From contig NZ_CAMYLS010000007.1 in the NCBI RefSeq assembly GCF_947259345.1, positions 1 to 64,000 on the forward strand: 64,000 nucleotides of DNA, in the 5' to 3' direction. The notes below the pieces were generated by a model that was given only the letters and a program-made list of their open reading frames with translations, was not told the DNA's origin and made no database searches. The stretch comes from an uncultured Maricaulis sp. (GTDB lineage Bacteria > Pseudomonadota > Alphaproteobacteria > Caulobacterales > Maricaulaceae). This document shows, one piece after another, positions 16,375 through 45,756 of the stretch (within the stretch, counting starts at the first letter, position 1; each line of letters begins with the position of its first letter). A program made the translations under genes and the position numbers.

Positions 16375-18168
16375 ATGACCGACGCTGCCACACCGACGTC
16401 GGACGGAGATGCGGCCCCCGAGGCCTTGGTGCTGAGTGCTGACCTCGAACAGGTGCGGCTCGATCAGGCGCGACTTCTTCTGGCACGAACCCGCATGTCA
16501 TGCCTGATCATTGGCGGCGTTATTTTGTATCTGGCCGTCCTGATCATGTTGAGCGGCAATTTCCGCTTCGCAGCGATTTGGGTTGCGGCGGCTGGCGGTA
16601 TGGTCGGCGTGGTGTTTGTCTATCCGCGCCTGGTCGTCTCCAACGGCGTCAACCTGACCAATTACCGACGCTACCTGATCGGCCATGTTTTCATCTCCGG
16701 GGTGACGGGCCTGATCTGGGCCACCCTCGCCATCAACTTCCTTGATGACACCTCCCTGCTCAATTTGTTCATCGCCATCAACATGGTGTTCTCGATCACC
16801 GTTGGCGGCATGATGCCGAGCGCAGAGTACCGACCAACATTCATCGCGCTTGCCAGCGCGACACTGCTACCCTTCGCCAGCTACTGGCTGGTAGCAGTGG
16901 AAGGTCCCCTGCGCCTGATCGGTGTCGGCCTGTTGATCTATTACGGCTTCGGACTCCTGGTAAGTGCGCGCGCCGAGATTCAGACACGCGCCCTGCTGGC
17001 GGCCGAACGAAATCAGGAACTGACGCGCCGGTTGCAAGAGAAGAATGCCCTCGTGGAGAAGGTGAGCGCGGAAAAGTCCCGCTTCCTCGCCGCCACCAGT
17101 CACGACCTGTCCCAGCCTCTGCAAGCGCAGGGCTTCTTCATCGGAGCCATGCGGCGGACGCTTCAACAGGCCGAGCACCTGGAGCTCCTCGACAAGATCG
17201 AGGCGTGCTGGAGCAGCCAGCAGCAATTGCTCCAGGCTCTGGTTGAAACCGCGCGCCTCGACAGTGGCGCGATCATCGCCAAGCCCCGCCCCTTCGCGCT
17301 CGAGACAGTGCTGCAAGGCCTTGAACAGGAATTCCTGGATCCGGCTCGCGAGCACAGCCTGACCCTGGAAACCAGTATCGAGACCGCTGTCCTCGACACC
17401 GACCCGCTTCTCCTGGCGCGCATACTGCGCAACCTTCTTTCCAACGCGGTGAAATTCACGCCGGCCGGTGGCCGCATCCGGCTGATCTCCCGCCGTGATG
17501 GTGAAAACATTCTGATTGAAGTCAGCGATAATGGGCCCGGTATTCCATCCGGTGAACTGGACCGGGTCTTCGACGAGTATGTCCAGCTGGCTGCGCCGGT
17601 GGATGGGGGCGAAAGCGGACTCGGACTCGGCTTGCCGATTGTTCGCCAGCTCGCCCGCAAGCTGGGCGCCGAACTGGAGTTCCACTCCGCGACCGGCGAA
17701 GGCACACGCGCCCAGCTCCGCATTGCCAGTGCGTCCCCGGACCAGCCCTTGCCTGACGACCCTGCAAGGCTGGAACGAGTCACCGGCACACCGCTCGTTG
17801 TCCTCGTTGAAGACGATGCGGCGATCCGGGATTCGCTCGCCATCGTGTTGACCGATTGGAGTTGCCGGGTTGTCGCGGCCAAGTCCGGTGACGAAGCAAT
17901 AGATCTTCTGTCCTGGGCGACGTCGGAGCCGGCCCTGCTGATTGTCGACAAGCGCCTGGCCGATGGCGAGGATGGATTGGAAACCATTGCCGCGCTTCGC
18001 AGCGAATTGGCGGCCGACACACCGGCAATCCTGCTGACCGGGGATATCTACCAGTTCGAGAAGCTGGCCGGGCTCCCGGATGTAACCGTCATCACCAAGC
18101 CAGCGGACCCCGCCCGTTTGCAAAGTGTACTTCTCGAAATCCTGGCTCGGGCGCCATCGCCCGAATAA
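16375..18168 (+). CDS. Membrane hybrid histidine kinase with receiver domain
   Basis: A protein of about 597 residues. The first 215 residues contain five to six membrane segments. A short coiled linker leads to the HisKA domain with phospho-acceptor His in FLAATSHDLSQPLQ, then an HATPase domain with N box (LLSNAVKFT) and G boxes (DNGPGIP, GLGLGLPI). The C terminus is a receiver domain (VVLVEDDAA, phospho-acceptor Asp in LLIVDKRL, switch LLTGD, invariant Lys in ITKPAD). The HDL-QPLQA acceptor style is frequent in hybrid kinases encoded beside LuxR-type regulators, and one lies convergently eight bases downstream. The ATG at 16375 was chosen over an earlier in-frame codon. The signal sensed is unknown. 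Confidence 0.88.
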   Translation: MTDAATPTSDGDAAPEALVLSADLEQVRLDQARLLLARTRMSCLIIGGVILYLAVLIMLSGNFRFAAIWVAAAGGMVGVVFVYPRLVVSNGVNLTNYRRYLIGHVFISGVTGLIWATLAINFLDDTSLLNLFIAINMVFSITVGGMMPSAEYRPTFIALASATLLPFASYWLVAVEGPLRLIGVGLLIYYGFGLLVSARAEIQTRALLAAERNQELTRRLQEKNALVEKVSAEKSRFLAATSHDLSQPLQAQGFFIGAMRRTLQQAEHLELLDKIEACWSSQQQLLQALVETARLDSGAIIAKPRPFALETVLQGLEQEFLDPAREHSLTLETSIETAVLDTDPLLLARILRNLLSNAVKFTPAGGRIRLISRRDGENILIEVSDNGPGIPSGELDRVFDEYVQLAAPVDGGESGLGLGLPIVRQLARKLGAELEFHSATGEGTRAQLRIASASPDQPLPDDPARLERVTGTPLVVLVEDDAAIRDSLAIVLTDWSCRVVAAKSGDEAIDLLSWATSEPALLIVDKRLADGEDGLETIAALRSELAADTPAILLTGDIYQFEKLAGLPDVTVITKPADPARLQSVLLEILARAPSPE

Positions 18169-18175
18169 GCGACAA

Positions 18176-18832
18176 TCAGATCAGGCCGAGGGCCTGGGCC
18201 TTGCGGACGCAGGCCGTACGCGTGTGTGCTCCCAGCGCCTCGAATATCGCCCTCAGGTGCGACTTCACTGTATTTTCGCTGATATCAAGGGACGCCGCGA
18301 TTGCCTTGTTGGTTTCGCCCTTGCCGATCAGATGGAGGATTTCCGCCTGCCTTGGCGCCAATGCCGGAACGCCACCAACCAGGGCCGCCGTGTCCGGGGC
18401 CAACGCATCCCGTGCCCCTGTTTCGCGTCCATCCTGCTCGAAAAAGAATGTTCTTCCAGAGAGAATGGTGTCGGTCGCTTCGACGAGAACGGCCGTATCG
18501 GCGGACTTGTGCACAAATCCGCGTGCGCCGAGCGAACGCATTTCGGCAACCGGCGGCTCTGATCCGATACCCGACAGGACGAGAACCGGCGCGCGCGACC
18601 GGCGATCACGCATCGCGGCCAGGACCGCCAGGCCATTCATGCTGCGCATCACCAGGTCAAGAATGACCAAGTCGAAGGTATGCCCCGCCTCCAGGTCTTC
18701 AAGGAAGGCGACCGGGGCGTCATAGGTGCACACCTCGTAGTCCGGTCGCAAGGACCCGAGCAGAACAGCAAAACCATCGACAAACATGCGATGGTCATCA
18801 ACCAGGGCAATCCGGCAAACGCGCGCTACCAT
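18176..18832 (-). CDS. LuxR/NarL-family response regulator
   Basis: A 218-residue two-domain regulator. The N-terminal receiver has the acidic pair IALVDDH, phospho-acceptor Asp in FDLVILDLVM near residue 58, and Lys in GFVHKSAD. The C-terminal LuxR-type helix-turn-helix (about residues 150-210) carries LAPRQAEILHLIGKGETNK and ISENTVKSHLRAI. It is tail-to-tail with the hybrid kinase gene, only seven bases apart, which suggests a partnership although they are not co-transcribed. The genes it controls are unknown. Confidence 0.9.
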   Translation of the reverse strand: MVARVCRIALVDDHRMFVDGFAVLLGSLRPDYEVCTYDAPVAFLEDLEAGHTFDLVILDLVMRSMNGLAVLAAMRDRRSRAPVLVLSGIGSEPPVAEMRSLGARGFVHKSADTAVLVEATDTILSGRTFFFEQDGRETGARDALAPDTAALVGGVPALAPRQAEILHLIGKGETNKAIAASLDISENTVKSHLRAIFEALGAHTRTACVRKAQALGLI

Positions 18833-18905
18833 GCTGTCATTCCGCAGCGCCAGGCCCGATACAGACCGATTTTTGAAACTGTCTTCCCCATGGCCGCAAG
18901 CTAGG

Positions 18906-18925
18906 TGAGCCGACGCATCGGCTCA
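18906..18925. repeat. Perfect 8-bp inverted repeat upstream of the formate dehydrogenase operon
   Basis: TGAGCCGA and TCGGCTCA flank a CGCA loop. There is no T tract, so it is not an ordinary terminator. It sits between the response-regulator start and fdsG and could be an operator or cruciform. Confidence 0.5.
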
Positions 18926-19033
18926 AGCGCTTGTTGCGGGCGATGCCTCTGTCGCCACGATTTGGGAAGTCAGGCGTGACGCGTCATAATGCCCGACAAC
19001 AAAAACCGATTTCGGGGAGACTGGCGTCAGACC

Positions 19034-19510
19034 ATGCCCATATTGATCGATACGATCGATGACGCGACCGCCCGTGCCGCATGCGCACGCCAGGCGCACC
19101 GGCCTGACGCGCTGATCGAAGTTCTGCACGACATTCAACGCACCACCGGCTTCGTCTCTGACGCCGCCATTGCCACAATCGCTGACGCACTCAATCTGAG
19201 TCGCGCGGAAGTTCTGGGGGTGGTCAGCTTCTACCATGATTTTGACCGTCAGCCCGGCGCTCGCCACACGCTCAAACTCTGCCGCGCCGAGGCCTGTCAG
19301 GCGGCCGGCGGTGAAGCGGTGGCCCGCCGACTCGAGGCCGCTCTCGGCGGCACGAACAATGCCATTGCAATCCGCTCTGTCTATTGCCTCGGCAATTGCG
19401 CGCTCGGCCCCGCCGCACTTCTGGACGAGCGCCCGATCGGCCGGCTTGATCCGGACGCATTGATCGCGGAATTGACCGCCAGCGGCGCCCTGTCAGGAAC
19501 CGCAGAATGA
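19034..19510 (+). CDS. fdsG: NAD-dependent formate dehydrogenase gamma subunit (NuoE-like)
   Basis: A protein of about 158 residues of the NuoE/HoxE/FdsG thioredoxin-like [2Fe-2S] family. The four cysteine ligands appear as CRAEAC (near residues 86-91) and CLGNC (near 122-126); an upstream helical region contains VLGVVSFYHDF. It passes electrons within the soluble formate dehydrogenase complex. The ATG at 19034 is preferred over an earlier one because family members begin shortly before the helical domain. Its last four bases overlap the start of fdsB (ATGA), so translation is coupled. Confidence 0.92.
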   Translation: MPILIDTIDDATARAACARQAHRPDALIEVLHDIQRTTGFVSDAAIATIADALNLSRAEVLGVVSFYHDFDRQPGARHTLKLCRAEACQAAGGEAVARRLEAALGGTNNAIAIRSVYCLGNCALGPAALLDERPIGRLDPDALIAELTASGALSGTAE

Positions 19511-21042
19511 GCAAACCTGCCGATCGCGTCTTTGTTCCCGGCGACTCGGCTGCGCGCTCGGTCGGCGCCGACCAGGTCGCCGAAAGGCTCTCTGAGGCCC
19601 TGCCGGGAACCCGCGAGATCGTACGCAATGGCTCACGCGGCCTGTTCTGGCTTGAGCCGTTGGTCGAAGTCGAGCGCGATGGCAGGCGGCTGGGCTTCGG
19701 GCCGGTCACACCGGAGGATGTCGCCGGGTTGGTAGGCGCTGGTTTTCCAGCCAGCGGCCACAGGCTCGCCCTTGGGCCGGTAGAGGAAATTCCGCAACTC
19801 GCCCGTCAGCAACGTTTGATCTTCGCACGTTGCGGGCTGGCAGGTCCGCTGGACCTCGATGCCTACGCAGACAATGACGGGCTGAAAGGTCTTCAGGCGG
19901 CCCGCGCACTCACACCCGGTGCGATCATTGAGCAGGTCAAGACATCCGGCCTGCGTGGGCGCGGCGGCGCCGGCTTCCCCGCCGGGATCAAATGGGAGAC
20001 AGCCCGCAAGGCCCAGGGCGAGCGCAAATATCTGTGCTGCAACGCCGATGAGGGCGATAGCGGGACCTATGCCGACCGCCTGCTGATGGAGGGTGACCCT
20101 TTCACGCTGATCGAAGGCATGAGCATTGCTGCGCGCGCCATTGGTGCGCGGCATGGCTTGGTCTATCTGCGCTCGGAATATCCCGACGCCATCCGCATAC
20201 TCAAACAGGCGATCACACTCTGGCGTGAGGCCGGGCATTTCCGCGAGCTGATCGACGGCGCCGATTTCGATATCGAAGTCCGCACGGGGGCCGGCGCCTA
20301 TATTTGCGGCGAAGAATCCTCGATGCTCAACAGCCTGGAAGGCAAGCGGGGCGAGGTCCGGGCCAAACCGCCCATACCGGCGATATCCGGCCTGTTCGGC
20401 CAACCGACGATCGTCAATAATGTGCTGACCTTGGGCAGTGTGCCCTGGATTCTCGAACATGGCGGCGAGGCCTATCGCGACTTCGGCACCGGCCGGTCGC
20501 GCGGCACCCAGGCCTTCCAGCTGGCTGGCGATGTCGCACAAGGCGCCCTGGTCGAGCTCGCTTTTGGCGTCTCGCTACGGAGCCTGATTGAGGATTTTGG
20601 TGGCGGCACACGGTCGGGTCGTCCGCTCCGTGCCGTCCAGGTGGGCGGCCCGCTCGGTGCCTATCTGGGAGAATCCGACCTAGATGTGGCCATGGATTAC
20701 GAAGCGCTGGCAGAGATCGGCGGCATGCTGGGGCATGGCGGCATCGTTGTGTTCAATGACAGCGTCGACATGGCGCGCCAGGCTCGCTTTGCAATGGAGT
20801 TTTGTGCCATCGAATCCTGCGGCAAATGCACCCCCTGCCGCGTCGGAGCGACACGCGGCCGGGAGACGCTGGACAAAATCATCGCCGGCGACGAAATCGA
20901 GGCCAATCTCGATCTCCTTCAGGATTTATGTGAGCTGATGACTGATGGCTCGCTGTGCGCGATGGGAGGCCTGACGCCCATGCCGGTGCGCAGTGCGATT
21001 GAGCGTTTTCCCGAAGACTTCACCCGTCTGGCTGCCGAGTAG
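19507..21042 (+). CDS. fdsB: NAD-dependent formate dehydrogenase beta subunit (NuoF-like)
   Basis: A 511-residue flavoprotein subunit. An N-terminal thioredoxin-like region of about 120 residues precedes the NuoF core with the NADH-binding LRGRGGAGFPAG motif, the FMN-binding GAYICGEESSMLNSLEG motif, and the [4Fe-4S] ligands ESCGKCTPCRVG near residue 440. It takes electrons from the iron-sulfur chain and reduces NAD+. It is the second gene of the fds operon, overlapping fdsG and ending nine bases before fdsA. The architecture matches Cupriavidus- and Rhodobacter-type FdsB. Confidence 0.95.
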   Translation: MSKPADRVFVPGDSAARSVGADQVAERLSEALPGTREIVRNGSRGLFWLEPLVEVERDGRRLGFGPVTPEDVAGLVGAGFPASGHRLALGPVEEIPQLARQQRLIFARCGLAGPLDLDAYADNDGLKGLQAARALTPGAIIEQVKTSGLRGRGGAGFPAGIKWETARKAQGERKYLCCNADEGDSGTYADRLLMEGDPFTLIEGMSIAARAIGARHGLVYLRSEYPDAIRILKQAITLWREAGHFRELIDGADFDIEVRTGAGAYICGEESSMLNSLEGKRGEVRAKPPIPAISGLFGQPTIVNNVLTLGSVPWILEHGGEAYRDFGTGRSRGTQAFQLAGDVAQGALVELAFGVSLRSLIEDFGGGTRSGRPLRAVQVGGPLGAYLGESDLDVAMDYEALAEIGGMLGHGGIVVFNDSVDMARQARFAMEFCAIESCGKCTPCRVGATRGRETLDKIIAGDEIEANLDLLQDLCELMTDGSLCAMGGLTPMPVRSAIERFPEDFTRLAAE

Positions 21043-32557: not shown

Positions 32558-33303
32558 TCAGATCGCCCCTCCGGATATGGTGATTGCCTGGCCGGAGACT
32601 GACCCTGAATGCGGCGAGCACAACCAGGCGACCGCCTCGGCAACCTCGACGGGCTGGATCAGGCGACCTTGCGGGTTCTCCTTGGCCAGCTCAGCCAGCG
32701 CCTGGTCCCGCGTGCGACCGGTCTTGGCCATGATATTGGCGATCGCATCCTCGACAATCTGCGTCTCGACAAAGCCGGGGCAGACCGCGTTCACGGTCAG
32801 GTTTGTTTGCGCGTATTCCAGCGACAGCGACTTCGTCAGTCCGACAACGGCATGCTTGGACGCGACATAGGGGGCGACATAGGCCCCGCCGCGCAGGCCC
32901 GCGATAGAGGCGATATTGATAATTCGGGCATAGTCCGCCCGGATCATCGAACCGAGCACGGCTTGAGTACAGCGCACCAAGCCTTCCACATTCACGGCCT
33001 GGATCTGGCGCCAATCGTCCATTGAGGTCTTGGTGAAGGCGCACGCGGCGGCGATGCCGGCATTATTGATCAGAATATCGATCGGCCCGCTGGCCTTGAA
33101 CGCCGCCTCGACACTCGCATCATCCGTAACATCGCAACGGATGGCACGGGCCCGCTCCAGCGTCCCGGCCGCGGCTTCCAGACGCTCGAGGTCGCGCCCC
33201 ATGAGCAGGGTCTCGATCCCCTCGACATCGAGACGGCTGGCACAGGCCAGGCCAATCCCGGTGCCACCGCCGGTGATGACAGCCCGTTTTCCGGTGAGCT
33301 TGC

Positions 33304-33307
<4 letters not shown>
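32558..33307 (-). CDS. SDR-family dehydrogenase, probable 3-hydroxyacyl-CoA dehydrogenase
   Basis: A 249-residue classical SDR with the cofactor motif [14 protein letters not shown] near residue 85, the catalytic Ser region ([11 protein letters not shown]) and YVASK. Its start overlaps the monooxygenase/reductase stop in ATGA, so the two are translationally coupled. The Azoarcus 2-aminobenzoate clusters also include a hydroxyacyl-CoA dehydrogenase; acting on a ring-derived hydroxyacyl-CoA is the likely role. Substrate specificity cannot be read from sequence. Confidence 0.83.
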
Positions 33308-35589
<2,282 letters not shown>

Positions 35590-36024
35590 CGCACACCGCT
35601 CCACCCTGATGCGAGGTTATTTTAGGTATAAACTATCGAGCTACCAAGCCCAACAAACACCCGAATAACGGGCGACCTCACTCCAGGCCCTGCTCGATAT
35701 TGAGTATGCAGGGAAATCGCCCCGCCTCGATCAGCTCGAAAGTCTGGTCAGGGGCAGGCGAAACTTAACGTACCGGCTTCGCTGAAACGCCCGGCTTGTG
35801 CGCACGGAGAGCACTCGAACGCGAGGGGATTCCGCTGGGGCGAGCCGTTCAATTTAATCTTGAAAATTCAGGAAAAAATGTGGCGGCTCAGGCAGACAAA
35901 ATCTGCTCGGTCTCGGCCATTCATAAGCCGGAGCATACCGCCACAGCATGAGGACATACCCTGCAAGCGCAGGCCAAGCCTCACCCGATACGCGGAAGTC
36001 GCATGGTTTCGATCCTGGTCCAGG
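35590..36024. other. Intergenic region upstream of the 2-aminobenzoate operon
   Basis: A 435-base gap with the operon promoter presumably near 35600-35650, where an AT-rich tract lies. A minus-strand stretch at 35678-35763 reads as 27 sense codons ending in FPCILNIEQGLE then a stop, but has an upstream stop and no start codon; it could be a decayed gene tail or chance. A three-stem inverted-repeat element lies at 35879-35945. Confidence 0.5.
35879..35945. repeat. Three-way-junction inverted-repeat element
   Basis: A perfect 8-bp outer pair (TGTGGCGG 35879-35886 with CCGCCACA 35938-35945) encloses two hairpins: GCAGA/TCTGC with a CAAAA loop (35892-35906) and CTCGGC with GCCGgAG (35912-35933, one bulge). 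The fold is visible directly. It could be a structured RNA, a DNA cruciform or a small mobile-element remnant. It matches no riboswitch or ribozyme core that I recognise. Confidence 0.5.
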
Positions 36025-37485
36025 TCAGAATACACGAGGCGCGATAAAGAGCGATACCATGCTCAAAACGGCCACGGCGATGATATTGAGTACCAGACCA
36101 ACGCGCGCCATGGCTGGAATGGCTACAAGCCCGGAACTGAACACGACCGCATTCGGCGGGGTCGCCACTGGCAGCATGAAGGCGCAGCTGGCGGCCAGTG
36201 TGACGGGAATGACGTAGACCAGAGGGTCCTGCCCGGTCTCGACGCCGATGGCCGCGATCACCGGCAGGAAGGTCGCCGTCGTGGCCAGGTTGCTGGTTAG
36301 TTCTGTGATGAAGATCACCAGCGCGGTCGCCACCACAATCAACAGAACGGCATTGATGGTACCAACGCCCACCAATTGCTGCCCGAGCCACAGAGCCAGA
36401 CCCGATGCTGTAACGGCCGAGGCCAGAGCCAAGCCGCCGCCGAACAGGACCAAGACGCCCCAAGGCAGTTTCGTTACTGCATCCCAGGTCATAAGGGTTT
36501 CACCCTTCTGACCCGATGGAATGAGAAAGGCTGCCACAGCGGCCGCCATCGCCACGCCGGTGTCCGTGACCTCCCCCACAAATGGCAAGTCATTCAACCA
36601 GCCTCGCGACAGCCAGCCGCCGACCAGGAAGGCGAACAGCAGTGCCGTCCGCAGCTCCGCTTTGCTCATCTCGCCAAGGCCCGAGCGCATGCTCCGGATG
36701 TGGCGCACCGCTTCGTCCGAGGCCTTGAAGTCGATCGGGTAAATGAAACGCGTCAGCACGAACCAGGCGATGGGCAGCATGATCAGGGACACTGGCAGAC
36801 CAACCAGCATCCATCGGGCAAAGTCGATTTCGACCCCGTAATTGTCCGCCATGAAGCCGGCCATGAAAGCATTCGGCGGTGTTCCGACGAGGGTGGCGAG
36901 ACCGCCCAGTGTTGAGCCGTAGGCAAGCCCCAGCAAGAGTGAGATTCCGAAATTCTCGCTTTGTCGCGTCTGCAATGTGGGCATGGTTTCACGGATCACC
37001 GTGACCACGGACATCGCGATCGGGAGCAGCATCAAAGTTGTCGACGTGTTTGAAATCCACATGCTCACAAAGGCTGCAGATCCCATAAATCCGGCAACCA
37101 GCCCGCGCGCATCCGCACCGGCCAGTGAAAAGACCAAAAGGGCGATACGCCGGTGCAGGCCACACCGCTCGATCGCCAGTGCCACCACGAAGCCACCGAA
37201 GAACAGATAGATGATCGGGTGGGCATAGGGTGCCGCGATACTGGACATAGGCACCACACCCAAAAGCGGCAGAGCAACCAGCGGCAAGAATGCCGTCATA
37301 GCAACGGGAATGGCCTCGGTGGCCCACCAGATGGCCATCCACAGGCCAATAGCGGCGACCAGCACGCCCTCTCTTGGCAAACCCTCGGGCGAAAACGTGA
37401 AAGCAAGGAGCGCGGCGAGCACAGGGCCCAGAACCAAGCCGATACGTTGGTAGGATGCAGGTCCGGAATAGTCGTGTGTGGTCAT
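36025..37485 (-). CDS. DASS-family (SLC13) dicarboxylate:sodium symporter
   Basis: A membrane protein of about 486 residues with many hydrophobic segments and the hallmarks of the divalent anion:Na+ symporter family: WWATEAIPVAMTAFLPLVALP near residue 55, a SNTSTTLMLLPIA motif in the first half and the matching SNLATTATFLPVIAA in the second half. Such proteins import succinate, fumarate, malate or related di- and tricarboxylates. The ATG at 37485 was chosen over an upstream in-frame ATG. It is third in a minus-strand run of TonB receptor, exported hydrolase and transporter. In that context it probably recovers a dicarboxylate made in the periplasm, such as fumarate from the lyase encoded at 43052. 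Confidence 0.88.
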   Translation of the reverse strand: MTTHDYSGPASYQRIGLVLGPVLAALLAFTFSPEGLPREGVLVAAIGLWMAIWWATEAIPVAMTAFLPLVALPLLGVVPMSSIAAPYAHPIIYLFFGGFVVALAIERCGLHRRIALLVFSLAGADARGLVAGFMGSAAFVSMWISNTSTTLMLLPIAMSVVTVIRETMPTLQTRQSENFGISLLLGLAYGSTLGGLATLVGTPPNAFMAGFMADNYGVEIDFARWMLVGLPVSLIMLPIAWFVLTRFIYPIDFKASDEAVRHIRSMRSGLGEMSKAELRTALLFAFLVGGWLSRGWLNDLPFVGEVTDTGVAMAAAVAAFLIPSGQKGETLMTWDAVTKLPWGVLVLFGGGLALASAVTASGLALWLGQQLVGVGTINAVLLIVVATALVIFITELTSNLATTATFLPVIAAIGVETGQDPLVYVIPVTLAASCAFMLPVATPPNAVVFSSGLVAIPAMARVGLVLNIIAVAVLSMVSLFIAPRVF

Positions 37486-37575
37486 CAGGTCGGCCTTCGG
37501 GATTGAGGTCGGCAATCGGCAGTCCATAACGGCACGGATGCGAAGCCCCTCGGCCGCGAGCCGCGCCGAAAACAG

Positions 37576-38433
37576 TTACTCTGCCATGGTGGCATTGGCG
37601 ATCAGGGCAGCGGCACTTCGGGCCATGCCCGCATTGTCATGAGCCACGCGCGGCACGACTACGCTTGTCCAGGCGAAGTTGGCACCCAATGCCTCTGCAG
37701 CGTCCCGCCCGGCACGGTGAAAGTAGAGCCCTCGCGCGAAGCGGTGCAAACCTTGGGCGTCAGCCTCCGGCGTACGGCGCAGATTGCGATCATCCGGATC
37801 GGTATCGGCATCGCCCAGCATTACCACGAGCGGCGTTTCGACCCAGCCGACAATCGCCGCGTTTTCGAGCGGTACATCCAGCAATCCATACGGCCAGGCG
37901 AGCGTGCGGTCGGGCAAGGTGTACCAGCCAGCATTCGCCGCATAGGCCCGGACAAGGTTCGGCAATTCTTCGAACAGAACAGCGCGATGGACGAATTGCG
38001 CGCCCGCCGAGTGGCCGAAAAGGTGATAGCCGTCCGCCTGTCCGCCGCGAGCGGCAATAGCGCGGAACAGGGGCTCGATGTATGAGTAGGCGTAGGGACC
38101 GTCGGTCCCGACACCGCCCAGATTGAACAATCTGGAACCGGGAAAATCCTGGGCCGAGAACTCCGGCACGTAGACCCGAAGCCCATAATCCCGCGCAAGT
38201 GCGATCCAGTTATCACGGTACTCGTCCGCATTGCGATTGACGCCGTGCAGGACGATGACAACAGGCGCGAGATCCATGCGATCCGGACCCGGCTCGAAAT
38301 AATGCACATTCAGACCGGGGCCCGCCGCCGATGAGAAAGAGAATTGCCCTGTTTGTCCGTCGCCGGTCAGGGCGACTGCCGAACCGGAAAGCAAGCACGC
38401 GGCCAGAATAAGTACGAAGAGGGTCTTCAGCAT
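37576..38433 (-). CDS. Exported alpha/beta hydrolase
   Basis: A 285-residue protein with a signal peptide (MLKTLFVLILAACLLSGSAV). It has an alpha/beta-hydrolase core: oxyanion-hole motif VLHGVNRNADEY, nucleophile elbow FGHSAGAQF near residue 150, an acid in MLGDADTDPDD and a late His in PRVAHDNAG. It resembles poly(hydroxyalkanoate) depolymerase-like or peptidase-like hydrolases without matching one closely. Lying between a TonB receptor and a dicarboxylate transporter, it probably cleaves an ester or amide in the compound the receptor imports. No strong ribosome-binding site precedes it, so it may rely on readthrough from the receptor. Confidence 0.8.
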   Translation of the reverse strand: MLKTLFVLILAACLLSGSAVALTGDGQTGQFSFSSAAGPGLNVHYFEPGPDRMDLAPVVIVLHGVNRNADEYRDNWIALARDYGLRVYVPEFSAQDFPGSRLFNLGGVGTDGPYAYSYIEPLFRAIAARGGQADGYHLFGHSAGAQFVHRAVLFEELPNLVRAYAANAGWYTLPDRTLAWPYGLLDVPLENAAIVGWVETPLVVMLGDADTDPDDRNLRRTPEADAQGLHRFARGLYFHRAGRDAAEALGANFAWTSVVVPRVAHDNAGMARSAAALIANATMAE

Positions 38434-38446
38434 GACGTCAGCGGCA

Positions 38447-38470
38447 GAGCGCCGCCCGAGGGCGGCGCTC
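38447..38470. repeat. Perfect 11-bp hairpin after the TonB receptor gene
   Basis: GAGCGCCGCCC and GGGCGGCGCTC are separated by two bases and there is no T tract. It lies in the 51 bases between the receptor stop and the hydrolase start. Such GC-only stems often protect the upstream mRNA or weaken downstream expression. Confidence 0.65.
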
Positions 38471-38484
38471 CCCGATCCATTGGA

Positions 38485-41400
38485 CTAGAAGTTCTTGCGA
38501 ACGTCGAAGTAGACCTGACGGCCACGGATGCTGTGATACGCGGCATCATAGCCATTGGTTTCGTCCGCAAGCGGTGGTTCTTCGTCAAAGATGTTGTTGG
38601 CGCCGACCCGGATGCGCAAGTCATTGAGCGGACCATGCCGGTCGAACTCATACTCCATATACGCATTGGTCTGGGTCCAGGCTTCGACGATGAAAGGATC
38701 ACCATTCGGATTCAGACCGGCACCGGTGTCGATGAACTCGCCGGTATAATCGGCACGGATCCCGCCGCCCCAACCGCTCGGGTGCGCCCAAGACAGGCTG
38801 GCACCCACGCGCCATTCCGGCTGGCCATCCTGCAGGATGATGTCGCCTTCCTGCGAGACCGTGATCTCGTCAGCGATGAGGCCGCTGTCCACAGCATCCC
38901 GGATCTGCTGGGCGCCCGGCGACAGGGCGATGAAGTAGGTCTCTAGGTAGGACGCGTTCACCTTCAGATTGAAGTCGCCGAACCGGGTATCTTCCAGATC
39001 ATAGTAGATGCCGTAGTCCAGACCCGACACCTCAATCTCTTCATTGTTGTCATAGGTGTCTCGAATGAAGAGGATATCCCCGACCGGATCGAGACCCGCT
39101 GCGGTGAAGAAGCTGATTTCATCCGCGTTTGGCGCGTCACGCACCACATTGGGGTTGGACGAACCCTGTAGTCGCAGCAGGTAGTCGAGGCTGATATGGT
39201 TCTCGGCACCGAACACACCGACAACACCCTCGCGCTGGATTTCCCAGCGATCCACGGTCACCGTCAACGCGTTCAGGAAGCGGAGCGGACCGCTCAGGCC
39301 GCGCGGCTCGAACACGACACCAAAGGTGATGTTGGTATCGTCCTCCGCGCCAATACCGTCAGCGACCGACCGGCGCTCGGTTCGGCCTTCGGAATAGCCG
39401 GTACAATCCGCGAAGGTCGCGAACGTGCCATTGCGCACACCGGCTTCACAGAAGTAGCTGTCCTCGCGGGAGTTGGAGCGGTCGACACCTTCATTGATGA
39501 CGATCAGATTCGGTGCCCGGAAGCCCTCGGAATAAGCCCCGCGGAACATCAGGCCCTCGAACGGGCGCCAGGCGGCGGCAACCCGCGGCTTGATGCCGCT
39601 GTCGCCGAAGTCGGAATAATCCTCGATACGAGCCGCGACCTGCACGTCGAATGTGTTGACCAGCGGGACATTCATGTCCGGGCTGACCAGCGGAATGGAC
39701 GCCTCGACGAAAGCGCCGAGTACATCGCGTGATCCGCTGGAATCAGGCGTTGGACTGGTGCCGTACACGTCCGTCTCGCTGACTTCACCCGTCACCTGAT
39801 CGGTGAATGTGATGGTGCCGTCCACACGGTCGTCACGATCCTCTTCATAGGCCTCATAGCGCGCCTCGACACCGGCTGCGATGCCCACACCGCCACCGGG
39901 CAGTGTGAACACATCGCCATTACTGACCTTGAAGTCGACCAAGGCGAGTTCCGCCGTGCTTTCACGAACCACATCGACCAGAAAGGGCTCAATCAGCGCC
40001 CGAGCGTTGGGCGTGGCATCACCGACAGACGGGTTGGCCGGGTTGCCGCCATTGAAGATGTTGTAAACGTTCGGCGTCTCGTTGAAGAGCGCCTGCTGGA
40101 ACAGGGTCCGCGAAATGGAGTTATTCACCGTGTCTTCGGCGTAGGACCGATTATAGAGCAGCGCGCTGTCCCAATCCCAGCCATTGGCGAACTCGCCGCG
40201 AGCACCACCCAGCGCACGCCATTGCGTGTTAACGACTTCAATATCGCGGAAGCCGACATCAACAAACCGGTAGCGGCCAGCATCGGTGAACACTGGCAGG
40301 CCTGCTGCCGGCACATTGGTCAGACCGGGAAGGCGGTTGGGGTTCGGCGTTCCGTCAGAGAAGTTCACCGGGCCGAACGGGTTGTAGTAGTAGTTCGCGG
40401 GAACAGAAATATTAGTCGCGCCGATACCGTTCCGCGGCTCATTGGTCGACTGGGTTTCAGCGTAGTAGAAGCCGAGCTCGGCATACAGCCGGACGCCATT
40501 GTTCAGATCGTGATTCAGGAAGGCAAAGCCGTTGAACCTGTCACGGTCGGAAATGATTGAACGCCCGGTCGCCCCATCATAGCGCAGATCCCGATCCTGG
40601 CTGCCATCATCGATACACAGGTCGGCCACAGACAGTGCGCCGGCCGTGTCGGCCCGGCATCCACTGAAACTGGCCGGCTGGAAGTGGAAAACGCCAGATG
40701 CGGATGTCAGCGTGGTACCGTTCTGGCGGACGCGATTGCTGGAGGTAGTGTCGAGTGTCCACTGACCCCATGGTGTTTGGGTGGCCCGGTTATCGAAGGA
40801 GGCATCGCCCTCGAAGCTCGTTCCGATCAGAAAGGGCCGCAAATCCTCGCTGGCGGCGCGGTCGGTTTCCGAGGCGAACAGACCATTGCGGCGCGAGAAC
40901 TCGGCCGAGATGGACAGGTTGGTCCGACCGTCATTGAAATTCTCGCCGGCCTTGATGGTCAGGGTCTGCTCACTAAGATCATTGCCTGTGGCGAACAGGG
41001 TGCGACCGCGGGCATAGAAGCCTTCAAAATCGTCATCGAGAATGGTGTTGAAGACGCCAGCGACGGCATCGGTGCCGTAAATCGCGGAAGCGCCGTCATT
41101 GAGCACTTCCACGCGTGAAATGCCGGCGACCGGCAGAGCATTCACGTTCGTCGTCGTGACGGGCGTTGAGAGCTCCGCCTGGGTCGACGGATGATTAACC
41201 ACCCGGCGACCATTGAGCAGGACCAGCGTCCCGCTAGATCCGATCGAGCGCAGGTTGATCGATGCAACGTCGCCCCGAGCATTGTTGTTGGTCGTATTAT
41301 TGTCGGTCCGGAACTGGACGCTGCCTTGTGCCGGCAAGGCGCGGATCAGGTCTTCACCGTCGACTCCGCCAATGGCCGCGATGTCTCTCTCTCCCAAAAC

Positions 41401-41565
41401 CGTGACCGGCAGAGCCTCGTTGATTCTGGCGCCCTGGATATTGGTCCCCGTGACGACAATGACGTCTTCCACCGGCGCCACTTCGTCTTGCTGTGCGTAG
41501 GCAGTGCTACCGATAGCCAAGGCAGTGAGCGCGATGCCAGAGCGAAGAATCTTCCTGAACGACAT
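38485..41565 (-). CDS. TonB-dependent receptor of the lyase/peptidase locus
   Basis: A 1026-residue TonB-dependent receptor with a signal peptide (cleavage near STAYAQQ), a TonB box-like EDVIVVTGTNIQG, the plug domain (NLRSIGSSGTLVLLNGRRV, DGASAIYGTDAVAGV) and a barrel ending in GRQVYFDVRKNF. It belongs to the large sphingomonad/Caulobacter group that takes up peptides, glycans or metallophores. It is first in a minus-strand run with an exported hydrolase and a DASS transporter, and divergent from a TetR-controlled lyase-carboxypeptidase operon. Substrate unknown; the surrounding enzymes suggest a compound with succinyl or acidic amino-acid parts. Confidence 0.92.
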   Translation of the reverse strand: MSFRKILRSGIALTALAIGSTAYAQQDEVAPVEDVIVVTGTNIQGARINEALPVTVLGERDIAAIGGVDGEDLIRALPAQGSVQFRTDNNTTNNNARGDVASINLRSIGSSGTLVLLNGRRVVNHPSTQAELSTPVTTTNVNALPVAGISRVEVLNDGASAIYGTDAVAGVFNTILDDDFEGFYARGRTLFATGNDLSEQTLTIKAGENFNDGRTNLSISAEFSRRNGLFASETDRAASEDLRPFLIGTSFEGDASFDNRATQTPWGQWTLDTTSSNRVRQNGTTLTSASGVFHFQPASFSGCRADTAGALSVADLCIDDGSQDRDLRYDGATGRSIISDRDRFNGFAFLNHDLNNGVRLYAELGFYYAETQSTNEPRNGIGATNISVPANYYYNPFGPVNFSDGTPNPNRLPGLTNVPAAGLPVFTDAGRYRFVDVGFRDIEVVNTQWRALGGARGEFANGWDWDSALLYNRSYAEDTVNNSISRTLFQQALFNETPNVYNIFNGGNPANPSVGDATPNARALIEPFLVDVVRESTAELALVDFKVSNGDVFTLPGGGVGIAAGVEARYEAYEEDRDDRVDGTITFTDQVTGEVSETDVYGTSPTPDSSGSRDVLGAFVEASIPLVSPDMNVPLVNTFDVQVAARIEDYSDFGDSGIKPRVAAAWRPFEGLMFRGAYSEGFRAPNLIVINEGVDRSNSREDSYFCEAGVRNGTFATFADCTGYSEGRTERRSVADGIGAEDDTNITFGVVFEPRGLSGPLRFLNALTVTVDRWEIQREGVVGVFGAENHISLDYLLRLQGSSNPNVVRDAPNADEISFFTAAGLDPVGDILFIRDTYDNNEEIEVSGLDYGIYYDLEDTRFGDFNLKVNASYLETYFIALSPGAQQIRDAVDSGLIADEITVSQEGDIILQDGQPEWRVGASLSWAHPSGWGGGIRADYTGEFIDTGAGLNPNGDPFIVEAWTQTNAYMEYEFDRHGPLNDLRIRVGANNIFDEEPPLADETNGYDAAYHSIRGRQVYFDVRKNF

Positions 41566-41581
41566 GTCTTTCCTCCCGTTC

Positions 41582-41636
41582 GTATAATTTCCGCGACGAG
41601 AGCAATCGCTCTGGACAGTGTCAACAAAAATTATAC
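41582..41636. promoter_or_regulatory. Spaced 9-bp inverted repeat in the divergent control region
   Basis: GTATAATTT (41582-41590) and AAATTATAC (41628-41636) are perfect inverse copies 37 bases apart, in the 182-base gap between the TonB receptor and the double-TetR gene. Each also looks like a -10 element, so they may be promoter cores, operator half-sites for the two-headed regulator, or both. Confidence 0.4.
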
Positions 41637-41747
41637 ACTCGGTTCAAATTTCATGCGAACAGCCTGCCTAAACTTGCTGCCTGTGACGACGAAGTTACAC
41701 TTGGGGCGAGTCACGCCTCGCGACGCAGTCAGTGTTGAAAGTTTGAT

Positions 41748-43055
41748 ATGACCGTTCTGAGACCTGAATTCCCGGATCATGGATCGCCGTTTTCTCGACA
41801 GCGAGAGCGTGACCGCAAGACCGCGGCAATCCGGTCGGCGGCATCAAAGCGTTTCATCGCGCAAGGTTTCCAAGGCACCCGTTTAGAGGACATTGCATCA
41901 GATCTCGGCCTGACCAAGACCAGCATCGCCTACTACTTCGCATCAAAGGACGAACTCGCCGAATCGGTCTTCCTGACGGCCGCCGAATTCCTGGAAGATG
42001 CCGTGAAGGCCGCCGGTACAGCTGACGCCGATGCCGGCGAAAGGGTGCTCGCCGTATTTGAGGCGTACAGCGATCAGCTCATTGATGCTTTGGACGGACG
42101 GCGCGATCAGCCCGCCCAGCTACAGGAGCTGGGCACACTGCCGGAAGAGGCCAGGTCGCGGATCGTGTCGCGCCTAAGTGCAGCTGTCGGCAGTGTCGAT
42201 GCCATGGTTCTGGCTTGGATGAACCTAGCCCCTCACGGGCTGGGTCGGAGCGAGCCGGTTACGTTTTGCCTGATTGCGCTGCTCGATTGGCTGAAGACCA
42301 GTGCCGGCACCATGTCGCGCGCCGAGTTCAGTCAAGCCTCCTCGGTTCTGCTGGACGTGCTGCGCAGCGGGCTGACCTGCTCTTGTGAGACGCTGGCGCC
42401 CATACGGCCGCAGTTTTCGCCCGGCAATGACTTGCCCCAGATCTTCGACCGCAAAGCCCGCAACAAGATGAAGCGCGAGGCCTTCCTCAAGGCAGGCATC
42501 CGGTTTTTCAACGCATACGGGTTCGACGGCGTTTCCTTGGCCGATGTGGCCAAGTCACTCGGCGTGACTCGCGGCGCCTTCTACTATCACATTCCCGACA
42601 AGGAGAGCTTTCTCGATCAATGCATGGAGCATTCGCTCGAGGTGGTGGAAGCGACCCTGGACAGTGCCGCCGATGCCCATTCAGGCCTCGGCTTCATACA
42701 CCGCGTCCTGTTCGATCTGATCTACACCCAGGCCAGCGGCGTGACCCCCCTGATCCGGCTGGGCCTGATGACCGCCCTGCCCATCGCCAGGCAGAACCGC
42801 CTACAAGCGCGACTGCGCAATATTTCGCGTCGACTTGGTGACGCCCATGCCGCGGCGATTGCTGACGGCGCGGCACGCGAGCTGGATACCGGCACGGTGG
42901 AAGCGATCCTGACCAATATACTCTTCCTCAATGACGGCTTCACACTCTCCGCCGCCAATAGTCTGAAAGACTGGCGGATTTCGGAAGAGCCACAGTCGGC
43001 GACGAATGACTATCTGCATGTTTTGCTGTACGGGCTGACGGCAGAACCCCGATGA
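41748..43055 (+). CDS. Tandem TetR regulator with two DNA-binding domains
   Basis: A 435-residue protein, about twice the usual TetR length, containing two complete TetR-type helix-turn-helix domains. The first (about residues 25-70) includes TRLEDIASDLGLTKTSIAYYF; the second (about 238-285) includes SLADVAKSLGVTRGAFYYH. Each is followed by a helical ligand/dimer domain. The two halves differ strongly, so this is an old fusion rather than a recent duplication. One polypeptide could mimic a TetR dimer or recognise two sites. It overlaps the lyase gene in ATGA and is divergent from the TonB receptor, so it probably controls both operons. Confidence 0.88.
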   Translation: MTVLRPEFPDHGSPFSRQRERDRKTAAIRSAASKRFIAQGFQGTRLEDIASDLGLTKTSIAYYFASKDELAESVFLTAAEFLEDAVKAAGTADADAGERVLAVFEAYSDQLIDALDGRRDQPAQLQELGTLPEEARSRIVSRLSAAVGSVDAMVLAWMNLAPHGLGRSEPVTFCLIALLDWLKTSAGTMSRAEFSQASSVLLDVLRSGLTCSCETLAPIRPQFSPGNDLPQIFDRKARNKMKREAFLKAGIRFFNAYGFDGVSLADVAKSLGVTRGAFYYHIPDKESFLDQCMEHSLEVVEATLDSAADAHSGLGFIHRVLFDLIYTQASGVTPLIRLGLMTALPIARQNRLQARLRNISRRLGDAHAAAIADGAARELDTGTVEAILTNILFLNDGFTLSAANSLKDWRISEEPQSATNDYLHVLLYGLTAEPR

Positions 43056-44554
43056 AGACGCTGATCCTGCTGGCGACGTCATTCGCCCTGGGCTGCTCCG
43101 GTCAACCACCCGATACCACAGAGCTCGTCACCGAGCAGGAGACGGCTGCACTGGTCGAGCCGCTAGCGGCACCGACCGCGCCACGCTTTGTCCCGCAAGT
43201 CGCCCCCTTGGAGCGCAACACGCAAATCGCCGAAATCTTCACGACGGCTTCGCTCAATGCCCGCGTCCTGCGCCTCGAAGCCGCCCTGGCCCGCGCGCAG
43301 GCGCGTCATGGCGTGATCCCGCAGAGCGCGGCCAATGCCATAACCGCCGCCGCGATTCCGGACCGCATCCCGCAGACAGAGATCGACGCGGAATATGCTC
43401 GGGTCCGCCACCGCATGGTCGCCCTGTTGAACGTCCTGCGCCGCTCACTCGATGAGGAGAGCGCCGATTACCTGCACTTCGGCGCCACGACAGTCGACCT
43501 GTATGACAGCGCCATTATGCTGCAGATGCGCGACAGCGTTTTCGAACTGATCGAGGACCTTCGCACGATCGAGCTTCAACTGTTCGAACTGGCCGAGCGC
43601 TACAAGTCGACACCGATGATTGGACGCACGCTGGGCCAACACGCCCTGCCCATCACTTTCGGCAAGAAGATGACCGGCTATATCGGCGAGAACCGGCGCC
43701 ACATCGAGCGACTGTCTCAAGTCCTGGATCGGATCGAACGCTCGATCAGCATGCGCGGTGCCGTCGGCAGCTTCCTGGGCATGGGGCCGCAAGGCCGCGC
43801 AGTGGAAGTCAGCCTGGCCGCCGAACTGGGCTTACCGGAGCCCTATCCGGATGACTGGCATGCCAGCCGGGATGTGTTCGCTGAGTTTGCGCTGATCCAG
43901 TCCATGATCGCGCAAACCTATGGCCGGCTGGGTCAGGAGGTGTTCCTGCTGCAGATGACCGATATCGGTTCGGTCGTGGAGCAGCGGCCCGGCGGGGCTG
44001 TCGGCTCCAGCGCGATGCCGCACAAGATCAACCCATCCCTGTCTGAAGCTCTGATCCAACACAGCCGCACCATTCCGCGCCTCGCCGAGATCGTCCAGGA
44101 CGACATGGTCAACATCTTTGAACGCGACAACACGTCCCGGCCCAACCGGGCTGTCGAGACTGTCGCCATCGCCACCGAAAACATGCTGGGTGATGCCAGC
44201 CGTCTGATTGCCCGCCTTCAGGTGGACGAAGCTCGCATGGCCGAGAATCTGAACCGCAGCCAGGGCTGGATTCTGACACAGCGCATCGTATTCGCAGTGC
44301 AGGACACGCTGGGACGTGAGCGCGCGGAGCTTCGCTTGCGCGATCTGGCCGCGGGCGCAGTCGACAGCGGCTTCTCCTTGCGTGCGGCCATCGAAGCCGA
44401 CGCGGAACTCCATGCATTGCTGGAGCCGCAGGAATGGGAGGTTCTGCTGGACCCGACGACCTATCTCGGCCTCGACTCCAATATCGTGGATCAGGTGATC
44501 GCCGAGGCTCGCCTGGCTCGCCAGTCCGATCCGGTCCGACCACCATCACAATGA
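43052..44554 (+). CDS. Exported lyase of the fumarase/aspartase (adenylosuccinate lyase-like) superfamily
   Basis: A 500-residue protein of the superfamily that eliminates fumarate or muconate-type products. The signature GSSAMPHKINP (residues 318-328) carries the catalytic Ser, and His142 lies in LHFGATT, as in adenylosuccinate and 3-carboxymuconate enzymes. The N terminus (MKTLILLATSFALGC) is a lipoprotein-like signal with an imperfect lipobox, followed by a flexible acidic linker to about residue 50, whereas known members are cytoplasmic. At the position of the usual THGQ His the protein has Leu194 (GRTLGQH), with His197 nearby. It is coupled to the TetR gene upstream and the M14 peptidase downstream. 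Likely a periplasmic C-N or C-C lyase releasing a dicarboxylate; substrate unknown. Confidence 0.82.
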   Translation: MKTLILLATSFALGCSGQPPDTTELVTEQETAALVEPLAAPTAPRFVPQVAPLERNTQIAEIFTTASLNARVLRLEAALARAQARHGVIPQSAANAITAAAIPDRIPQTEIDAEYARVRHRMVALLNVLRRSLDEESADYLHFGATTVDLYDSAIMLQMRDSVFELIEDLRTIELQLFELAERYKSTPMIGRTLGQHALPITFGKKMTGYIGENRRHIERLSQVLDRIERSISMRGAVGSFLGMGPQGRAVEVSLAAELGLPEPYPDDWHASRDVFAEFALIQSMIAQTYGRLGQEVFLLQMTDIGSVVEQRPGGAVGSSAMPHKINPSLSEALIQHSRTIPRLAEIVQDDMVNIFERDNTSRPNRAVETVAIATENMLGDASRLIARLQVDEARMAENLNRSQGWILTQRIVFAVQDTLGRERAELRLRDLAAGAVDSGFSLRAAIEADAELHALLEPQEWEVLLDPTTYLGLDSNIVDQVIAEARLARQSDPVRPPSQ

Positions 44555-45756
44555 ACCTTGCCATGAAACCTGTTGTCCTGATCCTTGCAGCCGGCCTCGC
44601 CGCCTGCGCGACCCCGGCAATGCCGCCGCGAGCGTCCACGCCCGGCAGCCAGACCTGCGCCAGTTCGGAGGTGCGGGTCGATGCCGCGTTTGAAGGTGGT
44701 GCAATGGCCCACTGCCAGGCCGCCGGGCCGCGCGAGTTCGACATCACGATCCGGCCGGAAGACCAACCGATCAATCCCAGCCCCTGGTACGCTGTGCGCC
44801 TGACACCGCAAACCGCTGGCCCGGTACAGATCAATCTGCTCTATGGCGACGCTCGGCACCGCTACCGCCCCAAGACCGGGCCAGACGGTGACAACTGGAC
44901 CTATGTGGATGACGCTGACGTTAGAGTATCCGACGACCGCTCCGTGGCCCATATCCGGTTGGATCTCGACGCCGCACCTGTCTTTCTCACCGGTCAGGAA
45001 ATCCTGACTGCTAGCGACTACGCGACCTGGATGATGCCTTACAGGACACGCAATGACCTATCGGTCTCGACTGTCGGATACTCGCTGGAGAACCGCCCGA
45101 TCGAGATGATCACACACCATCCTGAGTCTGGTCGGGGCAGTGTCGTACTGATAGGCCGCCAGCATCCGCCCGAAACCACGGGGGCGGTGGCGATGCAGGC
45201 ATTTGTCGAGGTTGTGCTGGGTAGCAGCGCCCTGGCACAGGAGTTCCGGTCGACATACGGTGTCGTCATCCTGCCCCTGCTTAATCCGGACGGCGTACAA
45301 CACGGGTACTGGCGACACAATCGCGGCAGCACCGATCTCAATCGTGATTGGGGGCCCTTTGCTCAACCGGAGACCCGTGCAGCCCGTGACGCCATCGACA
45401 CGTTGGATCAATCGGCGTCCACGCGACCCGTCCTGTTCCTCGACTTTCATTCCACCAATCGGGATGTGTTCTACACCCAACCTGCCGGCGAAGACGGAAC
45501 GCCGTATCGCTTCACGGGACTTTGGCTGGAGCGTGCCGGCGCGCGCTTGCCTGGCTATGAGATCGAACGGGCAGAGCGGCACCAATCGGACCTGCCGACC
45601 GCCAAGAATTATATGTTCGGTCGATTCATGATCCCGGCTATCACCTATGAACTCGGCGACGATACGGACCGCGCACTTATCCGGCAGACCGCCGCGGTGT
45701 TCGCCGAAGAGATGATGGCCATCCTGTTGGATTACGGACTGGCCGCAGCTCACTGA
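44551..45756 (+). CDS. M14-family zinc carboxypeptidase lipoprotein
   Basis: A 401-residue protein with a good lipobox (GLAACATP), so an exported lipoprotein. An N-terminal beta domain (about residues 35-160) precedes the M14 peptidase. Zinc ligands are visible as His205 and Glu208 in GRQHPPE and His300 in LDFHST; the catalytic Glu367 is in TYELGD. Conserved NPDGVQHGYWRHNRG and DLNRDW segments place it near the cytosolic-carboxypeptidase/deglutamylase branch, which removes acidic C-terminal residues. It overlaps the lyase gene in ATGA. In this operon it may release an amino acid that exposes or follows the lyase reaction; that order is speculative. Confidence 0.87.
   Translation: MNLAMKPVVLILAAGLAACATPAMPPRASTPGSQTCASSEVRVDAAFEGGAMAHCQAAGPREFDITIRPEDQPINPSPWYAVRLTPQTAGPVQINLLYGDARHRYRPKTGPDGDNWTYVDDADVRVSDDRSVAHIRLDLDAAPVFLTGQEILTASDYATWMMPYRTRNDLSVSTVGYSLENRPIEMITHHPESGRGSVVLIGRQHPPETTGAVAMQAFVEVVLGSSALAQEFRSTYGVVILPLLNPDGVQHGYWRHNRGSTDLNRDWGPFAQPETRAARDAIDTLDQSASTRPVLFLDFHSTNRDVFYTQPAGEDGTPYRFTGLWLERAGARLPGYEIERAERHQSDLPTAKNYMFGRFMIPAITYELGDDTDRALIRQTAAVFAEEMMAILLDYGLAAAH

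Follow-up and report, generated by a model that had tools for sequence, protein, structure and literature searches.

Gene content and organisation of the locus

We analysed a six-gene locus at positions 36025–45756 of a 64,000-nucleotide stretch of DNA from an uncultured Maricaulis sp. (contig NZ_CAMYLS010000007.1, positions 1 to 64,000; hereafter the window). The locus comprises two divergent arms, a left arm on the minus strand encoding a DASS symporter, an alpha/beta hydrolase and a TonB-dependent receptor, and a right arm on the plus strand encoding a double TetR regulator, a lyase and an M14 metallopeptidase. An earlier note on this DNA had described six open reading frames with these orientations and protein families; all are present, and the domain searches agree with the family calls (the alpha/beta hydrolase match is weak and under the Pfam cut-offs). 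The features are as follows.

36025–37527, minus strand: DASS (SLC13-type) sodium/dicarboxylate symporter (TIGR00785)
37576–38433, minus strand: exported alpha/beta hydrolase belonging to the PahZ1 group, with invariant GHSAG serine and histidine
38485–41565, minus strand: TonB-dependent outer-membrane receptor, plug and barrel domains
41614–41650, no strand: conserved, divergent promoter/operator-like element, GACA(G/C)TGTCAAC..ATACACTCGGTTCAAATT
41748–43055, plus strand: fused double TetR regulator, TetR_N twice within one protein
43052–44554, plus strand: exported lyase of the fumarase/aspartase/adenylosuccinate-lyase superfamily, probably a lipoprotein, Lyase_1 and ADSL_C domains
44551–45756, plus strand: M14 metallopeptidase, probable lipoprotein, Peptidase_M14 domain

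The stop codon of the TetR gene and the start of the lyase gene overlap at 43052–43055, and the lyase stop codon overlaps an ATG at 44551, which suggests translational coupling along the right arm and a start for the M14 gene at 44551 rather than at 44434. Judged by eye, the N-termini of the hydrolase, the lyase and the M14 protein are all signal-like, in keeping with the export proposed for these three enzymes. The hydrolase begins with a classical signal, whereas the lyase (MKTLILLATSFALGC) and the M14 protein (MNLAMKPVVLILAAGLAAC) are probably lipoproteins, a lipobox-like motif standing at the end of each N-terminal stretch.

Conservation of the gene cluster

The lyase matched 18 of 137 sampled genomes of the window's family at 1e-40. 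Seventeen of these, the window's own included, form a close group, and the eighteenth (G077) matched only at background level. All genome groups used here were samples, in which at most four (lyase) or 17 (hydrolase) first-look candidates per genome were scored by alignment, so that absence of a gene is not strict; a gene is called absent from a locus if it was not seen in the 12–20 kb fetched. All 16 fetched family loci contain the DASS (65–84% identical to that of the window), hydrolase (41–62%), TetR (29–69%) and lyase (46–78%) genes together. Since these four genes stay together in all 17 lyase genomes, the cluster is not a product of chance. Fourteen of the 16 loci have an orthologous receptor (76–82% identical in 13, 45% in L041) and 13 have an M14 gene, with L033 and L039 placing M14 beyond the DASS gene instead. 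Genes flanking the locus served as controls: the fused monooxygenase gene at 33304–35604 was matched in none of the 16 loci, an SDR gene (32558–33307) in one, weakly (28%, L032), and the L21 gene (from 46963) in one (58%, L029, ∼7 kb past M14). The earlier note had held that repeated co-occurrence of lyase, M14, DASS and receptor would mark a real system; the repetition is found, and the synteny bears out a conserved uptake-and-periplasmic-breakdown system.

Beyond this family, a sample of 385 genomes of the class yielded, besides the window's own, only one lyase clear of background (G281; 622 bits, against at most 336 for the rest). In the family of G281, the second family hereafter, seven of 397 sampled genomes carry the lyase at 1e-110. 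One further close outsider, from an uncultured Erythrobacter (L046, 47% identity), appeared among the best 80 matches listed from a scan of named genomes; its genes match those of L167 best, and we therefore placed it in the second family, giving eight lyase loci. In most of these, receptor, M14, lyase and dicarboxylate-carrier genes are present in a different arrangement. An amidohydrolase gene is present in six of the eight, a D-amino-acid-dehydrogenase-like gene in five and a DctA/GltP-like carrier in three (L165, L166 and L167), with NCBIfam scores of 172 of 340, 326.7 of 383 and 264 of 513 bits, respectively, all below cut-off. The amidohydrolase matches PRK09061 (‘amidohydrolase family protein’), again below cut-off, and we take it to be N-acyl-D-amino-acid-deacylase-like (a D-acidic-amino-acid deacylase). 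A LysR-type regulator match occurs in six of the loci (partial in L166 and L167).

Across all 25 lyase loci (the window, 16 in its family and eight in the second family), a dicarboxylate carrier accompanies the lyase in every case, as the earlier note had supposed for the window, and in 23 it is a DASS protein. M14 is found in 21 of the 25, as is a receptor at least 40% identical to that of the window; a PahZ1-like hydrolase lies within the locus in 19 cases and in the same genome in 23. A plasmid search with the lyase returned only relatives below 60% identity. The hydrolase matched 16 plasmid records; in the four examined, the window's receptor, M14 and DASS proteins found no counterpart within the stretch, and one of the four (L044) has a weak lyase-family match (27%) that is annotated argH.

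The hydrolase groups with poly(aspartic acid) hydrolases

The best solved relatives of the hydrolase are two chains of Poly(Aspartic acid) hydrolase-1 (PahZ1), 6ve6 (E = 2.7e-62, 213.7 bits) and 9o7u (E = 1.6e-37, 132.4 bits), with LpqC, whose function is not known, close behind the latter (E = 4.6e-37, 130.9 bits). We take 6ve6 to be the Sphingomonas KT-1 enzyme and 9o7u to be, probably, that of Pedobacter. The L167 copy is closer still to PahZ1 (E = 1.2e-74). In a tree with LpqC set as outgroup, the window hydrolase shares a 46-row branch with both PahZ1 chains (Shimodaira–Hasegawa-like approximate likelihood ratio test, SH-aLRT, 96). The window protein shares with PahZ1 its sequence family and the active-site motifs HGxxRN, GHSAG and NAGWYT; Ser142 of the GHSAG motif, Asp210 and His265 are invariant in all ten aligned proteins, with Asp210 the putative triad acid. 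Matches to poly(hydroxybutyrate) (PHB)-depolymerase models are weak. By sequence kinship, the hydrolase belongs to the PahZ1 group above other PHB-depolymerase-like enzymes. It differs from PahZ1 in sequence, at 213 bits to 6ve6, and in lying beside genes for a receptor, a carrier, an M14 peptidase and a lyase.

PahZ1 of Pedobacter KP-2 cuts the beta-amide bonds between aspartate units of poly(aspartic acid), requires L-Asp at one subsite and favours L-Asp/D-Asp junctions (PMC4456602). The PahZ1 enzymes were isolated with synthetic polymer, and the passages of that source on them name no natural substrate (PMC4456602). Among the open-licence papers listed in the searches, none was found to describe the genomic surroundings of the published PahZ1 enzymes. 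The locus described here places these enzymes in a conserved gene neighbourhood and points to a class of substrates to test, which could show their natural role.

In the window's family, the PahZ1-like hydrolase was found in 17 of 17 lyase-bearing genomes and in four of 120 without the lyase (Fisher p = 2.8e-18), and in the second family in five of seven against 27 of 390 (Fisher p = 4.7e-5), both counts ignoring relatedness among the genomes. The lyase and hydrolase genes are unlinked in four of the five second-family genomes having both.

The lyase belongs to a clade with export-type N-termini

In a quick tree search made without bootstrap, the 25 lyases group as a single clade (SH-aLRT 99), separate from the 42 background rows, which include two PurB sequences. 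By a crude score (at least 1.7), 24 of the 25 have a hydrophobic N-terminal stretch, the other (L162) having no clear start, so that the export-type N-terminus first remarked on for the window lyase extends across the clade. No signal-like N-terminus was scored for 38 of the 42 background relatives, and the four that passed (L144, L145, L149 and L154) have no clear signal by eye. Lipobox-like and ordinary signals alternate among the relatives, from which export of the lyase seems to be kept while its form changes. The fumarase/aspartase superfamily, a lyase type otherwise known from inside cells, thereby gains a clade with export signals. Within this tree, the lyases of L168 (G895) and L041 (G107), from two different families, group together (support 98), which may reflect transfer of the gene or of the module.

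The catalytic signature of the superfamily is intact throughout the clade, with Ser319, Ser320, Lys325, Asn327, Thr146, Thr147 and His197 present in 25 of 25 lyases (the GSSxMPxKxN loop, T-T and QHAxP motifs). This signature is shared with PurB and argininosuccinate lyase, and some PurB residues are shared as well: His120, His197 and Gln410 in all 25 and Arg411 in 24. His120 is not unique to the exported clade, being present in 10 of 40 background rows, and His197 is in 28 of the 40. The background relatives, 29–36% identical, mostly differ from the clade at positions 121–122, 205 and 359–363. The window's own genome encodes three further PF00206 proteins, by eye FumC, ArgH and PurB, with the window lyase as the fourth and no separate aspartase among them. 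Compared with PurB of the same genome, the window lyase is exported, lies in a separate clade and lacks the N-terminal RY motif, which in PurB binds phosphate. It falls below every curated NCBIfam cut-off, including those of the PurB model TIGR00928 (246.7 against 326.2 bits) and of two 3-carboxymuconate cycloisomerase (PcaB) models (278.9 against 595 and 221.3 against 355.75 bits). An ergothionase identity led nowhere. No description of this locus, or of an exported lyase of this superfamily, was found among the papers listed by a literature search confined to open-licence papers, so absence from print is unproven.

M14, DASS, receptor and intergenic element

In the M14 protein, the zinc ligands and catalytic glutamate (His205, Glu208, His300 and Glu367) are invariant in 16 of 16 aligned sequences, 14 of them from lyase loci. 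Its nearest solved relatives are bacterial M14 carboxypeptidases and CCP-like proteins; the CCP N-terminal domain PF18027 is present in two of five M14 proteins scanned (L167 and L046), the window, L213 and L168 proteins being without it. The DASS protein scores 282 bits against TIGR00785, over the cut-off of 198.6, and is nearest to the Na/citrate cotransporter SLC13A5, SLC13A2, SLC13A3 and VcINDY among solved structures. It is presumed to be the inner-membrane carrier for a C4 product. The organism does not lack a DAACS carrier: its genome contains PF00375, as do 130 of the 137 genomes of the family. In L162, an AbgT-family transporter gene (12201–13790, below cut-off) directly follows the DASS gene, in a stretch with no receptor or M14 match.

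Fifteen lyase loci have the divergent receptor/TetR pair, and L041, which is without the exact core, was left out of the alignment of the region between. The 37-base element is kept in all 14 aligned loci. Its core is the near-palindrome GACA(G/C)TGTC (beginning with A in L036 and L038), and the element overlaps promoter-like hexamers on the two strands. Allowing up to three mismatches, the element is found once in the genome. The exact core also occurs in the lyase-free L232, and is not in L034, L035, L230, L233 or the eight second-family loci. We infer a dedicated control site shared by both arms and bound by the double TetR protein. Each of the 16 other family loci has a match to nearly the whole of the fused TetR protein. 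Models of B12, heme and siderophore receptors match the TonB receptor weakly, at scores far under cut-off.

Loci without the lyase

Three loci of the window's family (L230, L232 and L233, from genomes G094, G091 and G011) contain TetR, receptor, hydrolase and DASS genes, and neither the stretch nor, at 1e-40, the whole genome yields a lyase match. Only L230 is unambiguous, its receptor being 78% identical to that of the window; the receptors of L232 and L233 are 35–36% identical, and the substrate there may therefore differ. In L230 and L232, the M14 gene directly follows TetR, at the expected position of the lyase. Because the other genes occur in these loci without it, the lyase is accessory, and the earlier description of a system built around the lyase is not supported.

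For the second family, 20 stretches around PahZ1-like genes were fetched from the 32 genomes with a match, four of them from lyase-bearing genomes. Seven of the 16 lyase-free stretches (L199, L209, L211, L212, L213, L217 and L218) combine receptor, M14 and hydrolase genes. DctA is present in five of these seven (four were scored, all over the curated cut-off, and L218 was called by similarity), with a sensor-kinase gene beside it in three; DASS is in none of the 16. A strict transporter swap, with DctA in loci without the lyase and DASS in loci with it, is suggested by the second-family loci but refuted by the DASS genes of L230, L232 and L233. In a fourth genome of the window's family, G110 (L231, 2871–3626), a PahZ1-like frame carries two stop codons and is either a decayed gene or an assembly error; ∼5 kb from it lie matches to the amidohydrolase and the dehydrogenase.

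Proposed function

We propose that the locus serves TonB-dependent uptake and periplasmic breakdown of an acidic aspartyl chain, most likely beta-linked, and we give this reading a probability of about 0.47. Candidate substrates are isoaspartyl peptides and a poly-beta-aspartate-like polymer, and the chain used in the second family may also be racemised. Oligomers would pass the outer membrane through the receptor and be cut at internal amide bonds by the PahZ1-like hydrolase; the lipoprotein M14 peptidase would trim acidic ends and, where present, the exported lyase would eliminate fumarate from an aspartyl or N-substituted-aspartyl product. DASS would then import C4-dicarboxylate, and the fused double TetR protein would control both arms. 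An aspartyl chain accounts jointly for the PahZ1 kinship, the peptidase, the amino-acid genes of the second family and the dicarboxylate carriers, and would link aspartyl material (perhaps D/L in the second family) to a candidate uptake route. TonB-receptor-centred utilisation loci are a known kind, with a receptor, an exported depolymerase, an inner-membrane carrier and a local regulator, as here; the present locus differs in its apparently acidic, amide-type substrate and its exported lyase step.

Several observations weigh against this proposal. PahZ1 kinship does not fix the substrate, since 9o7u scores no better than LpqC, and the L233 hydrolase lies outside the 46-row PahZ1 branch. The lyase-bearing genomes G720 and G895 have no PahZ1-like match at 1e-40, and the co-occurrence counts above treat genomes without regard to relatedness. 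Nine of the 16 lyase-free PahZ1 stretches have no receptor and M14 pair, while M14 is absent from three of the 16 family loci and the receptor is non-orthologous in two. The DASS genes of the three lyase-free loci mean that fumarate release alone does not explain this carrier. Finally, amidohydrolase, D-amino-acid dehydrogenase, DctA and DAACS genes are found in none of the 17 lyase loci of the window's family, and a D/L-specific reading of the window locus is weakened by the lack of the D-amino-acid genes there.

A more specific role for the lyase, which we consider improbable, is that of a lytic exo-enzyme breaking the N–C(alpha) bond of a terminal N-acyl-aspartate to give fumarate and a primary amide. 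In the cleavage of succinylaminoimidazolecarboxamide ribotide (SAICAR) by PurB, an N-acyl-aspartate loses fumarate, and this makes the same chemistry conceivable at a terminal aspartyl amide. Simple deamination of aspartate is another candidate reaction. If the exo-enzyme reading is true, the superfamily would have a periplasmic member, and non-hydrolytic shortening of peptides would take part in the scavenging of natural poly-beta-aspartate or of isoaspartyl or D-aspartyl material.

Of the alternatives, the earlier proposal survives best, though we hold it rather unlikely: an N-succinyl compound or an acidic metallophore (EDDS-like, ethylenediaminedisuccinate) would be imported and trimmed, with the lyase freeing fumarate and the other enzymes preparing the substrate. 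The intact superfamily signature of a lyase that reaches no curated cut-off fits this, as do the weak receptor matches to B12, heme and siderophore models, far under cut-off as these are. It is less easily squared with the occurrence of TetR, receptor, hydrolase and DASS without the lyase, with carriers that belong to dicarboxylate-carrier families, or with the PahZ1-like hydrolase, which shifts the likely substrate toward an aspartyl (or malyl) chain.

Use of polymalate, the polyester analogue of beta-poly(aspartic acid), seems to us improbable. Here the hydrolase would be a polyester depolymerase of the PHB-depolymerase kind, to whose models it weakly matches, and malate or fumarate would enter through DASS or DctA, one of which adjoins the hydrolase even where there is no lyase; both kinds of carrier commonly transport malate. 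Against this stand M14 in 21 of the 25 lyase loci with its catalytic residues invariant in the 16 aligned, the D-amino-acid genes of the second family, a lyase needless for malate, and solved hydrolase relatives named as poly(aspartic acid) hydrolases.

Least convincing is a module as proposed whose lyase performs cycloisomerisation, decarboxylation (as Tad1) or addition, so that DASS would receive a tricarboxylate or another acid: the closest solved sequences (3-carboxy-cis,cis-muconate cycloisomerase, the 3c8t fumarate lyase, CreD and the trans-aconitate decarboxylase Tad1) and the three best NCBIfam scores, at about half their cut-offs, would allow it, but the PurB-shared residues kept across the clade speak against it, His120 and His197 occurring also in background rows.

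Neighbouring genes

Directly downstream of the DASS gene, the window gene at 33304–35604 encodes, by eye, a fusion of a flavin adenine dinucleotide (FAD) monooxygenase and an old-yellow-enzyme-like protein. It has no match in seven of the eight second-family loci; in the other, L164, a gene 61% identical to it lies at 17943–19799, ∼6 kb beyond DASS. Genes resembling 5-oxoprolinase/hydantoinase, with hydantoinase A and B domains, occur in L164 (12140–15694), which has the lyase, and in L213 (672–4244), which is without it.

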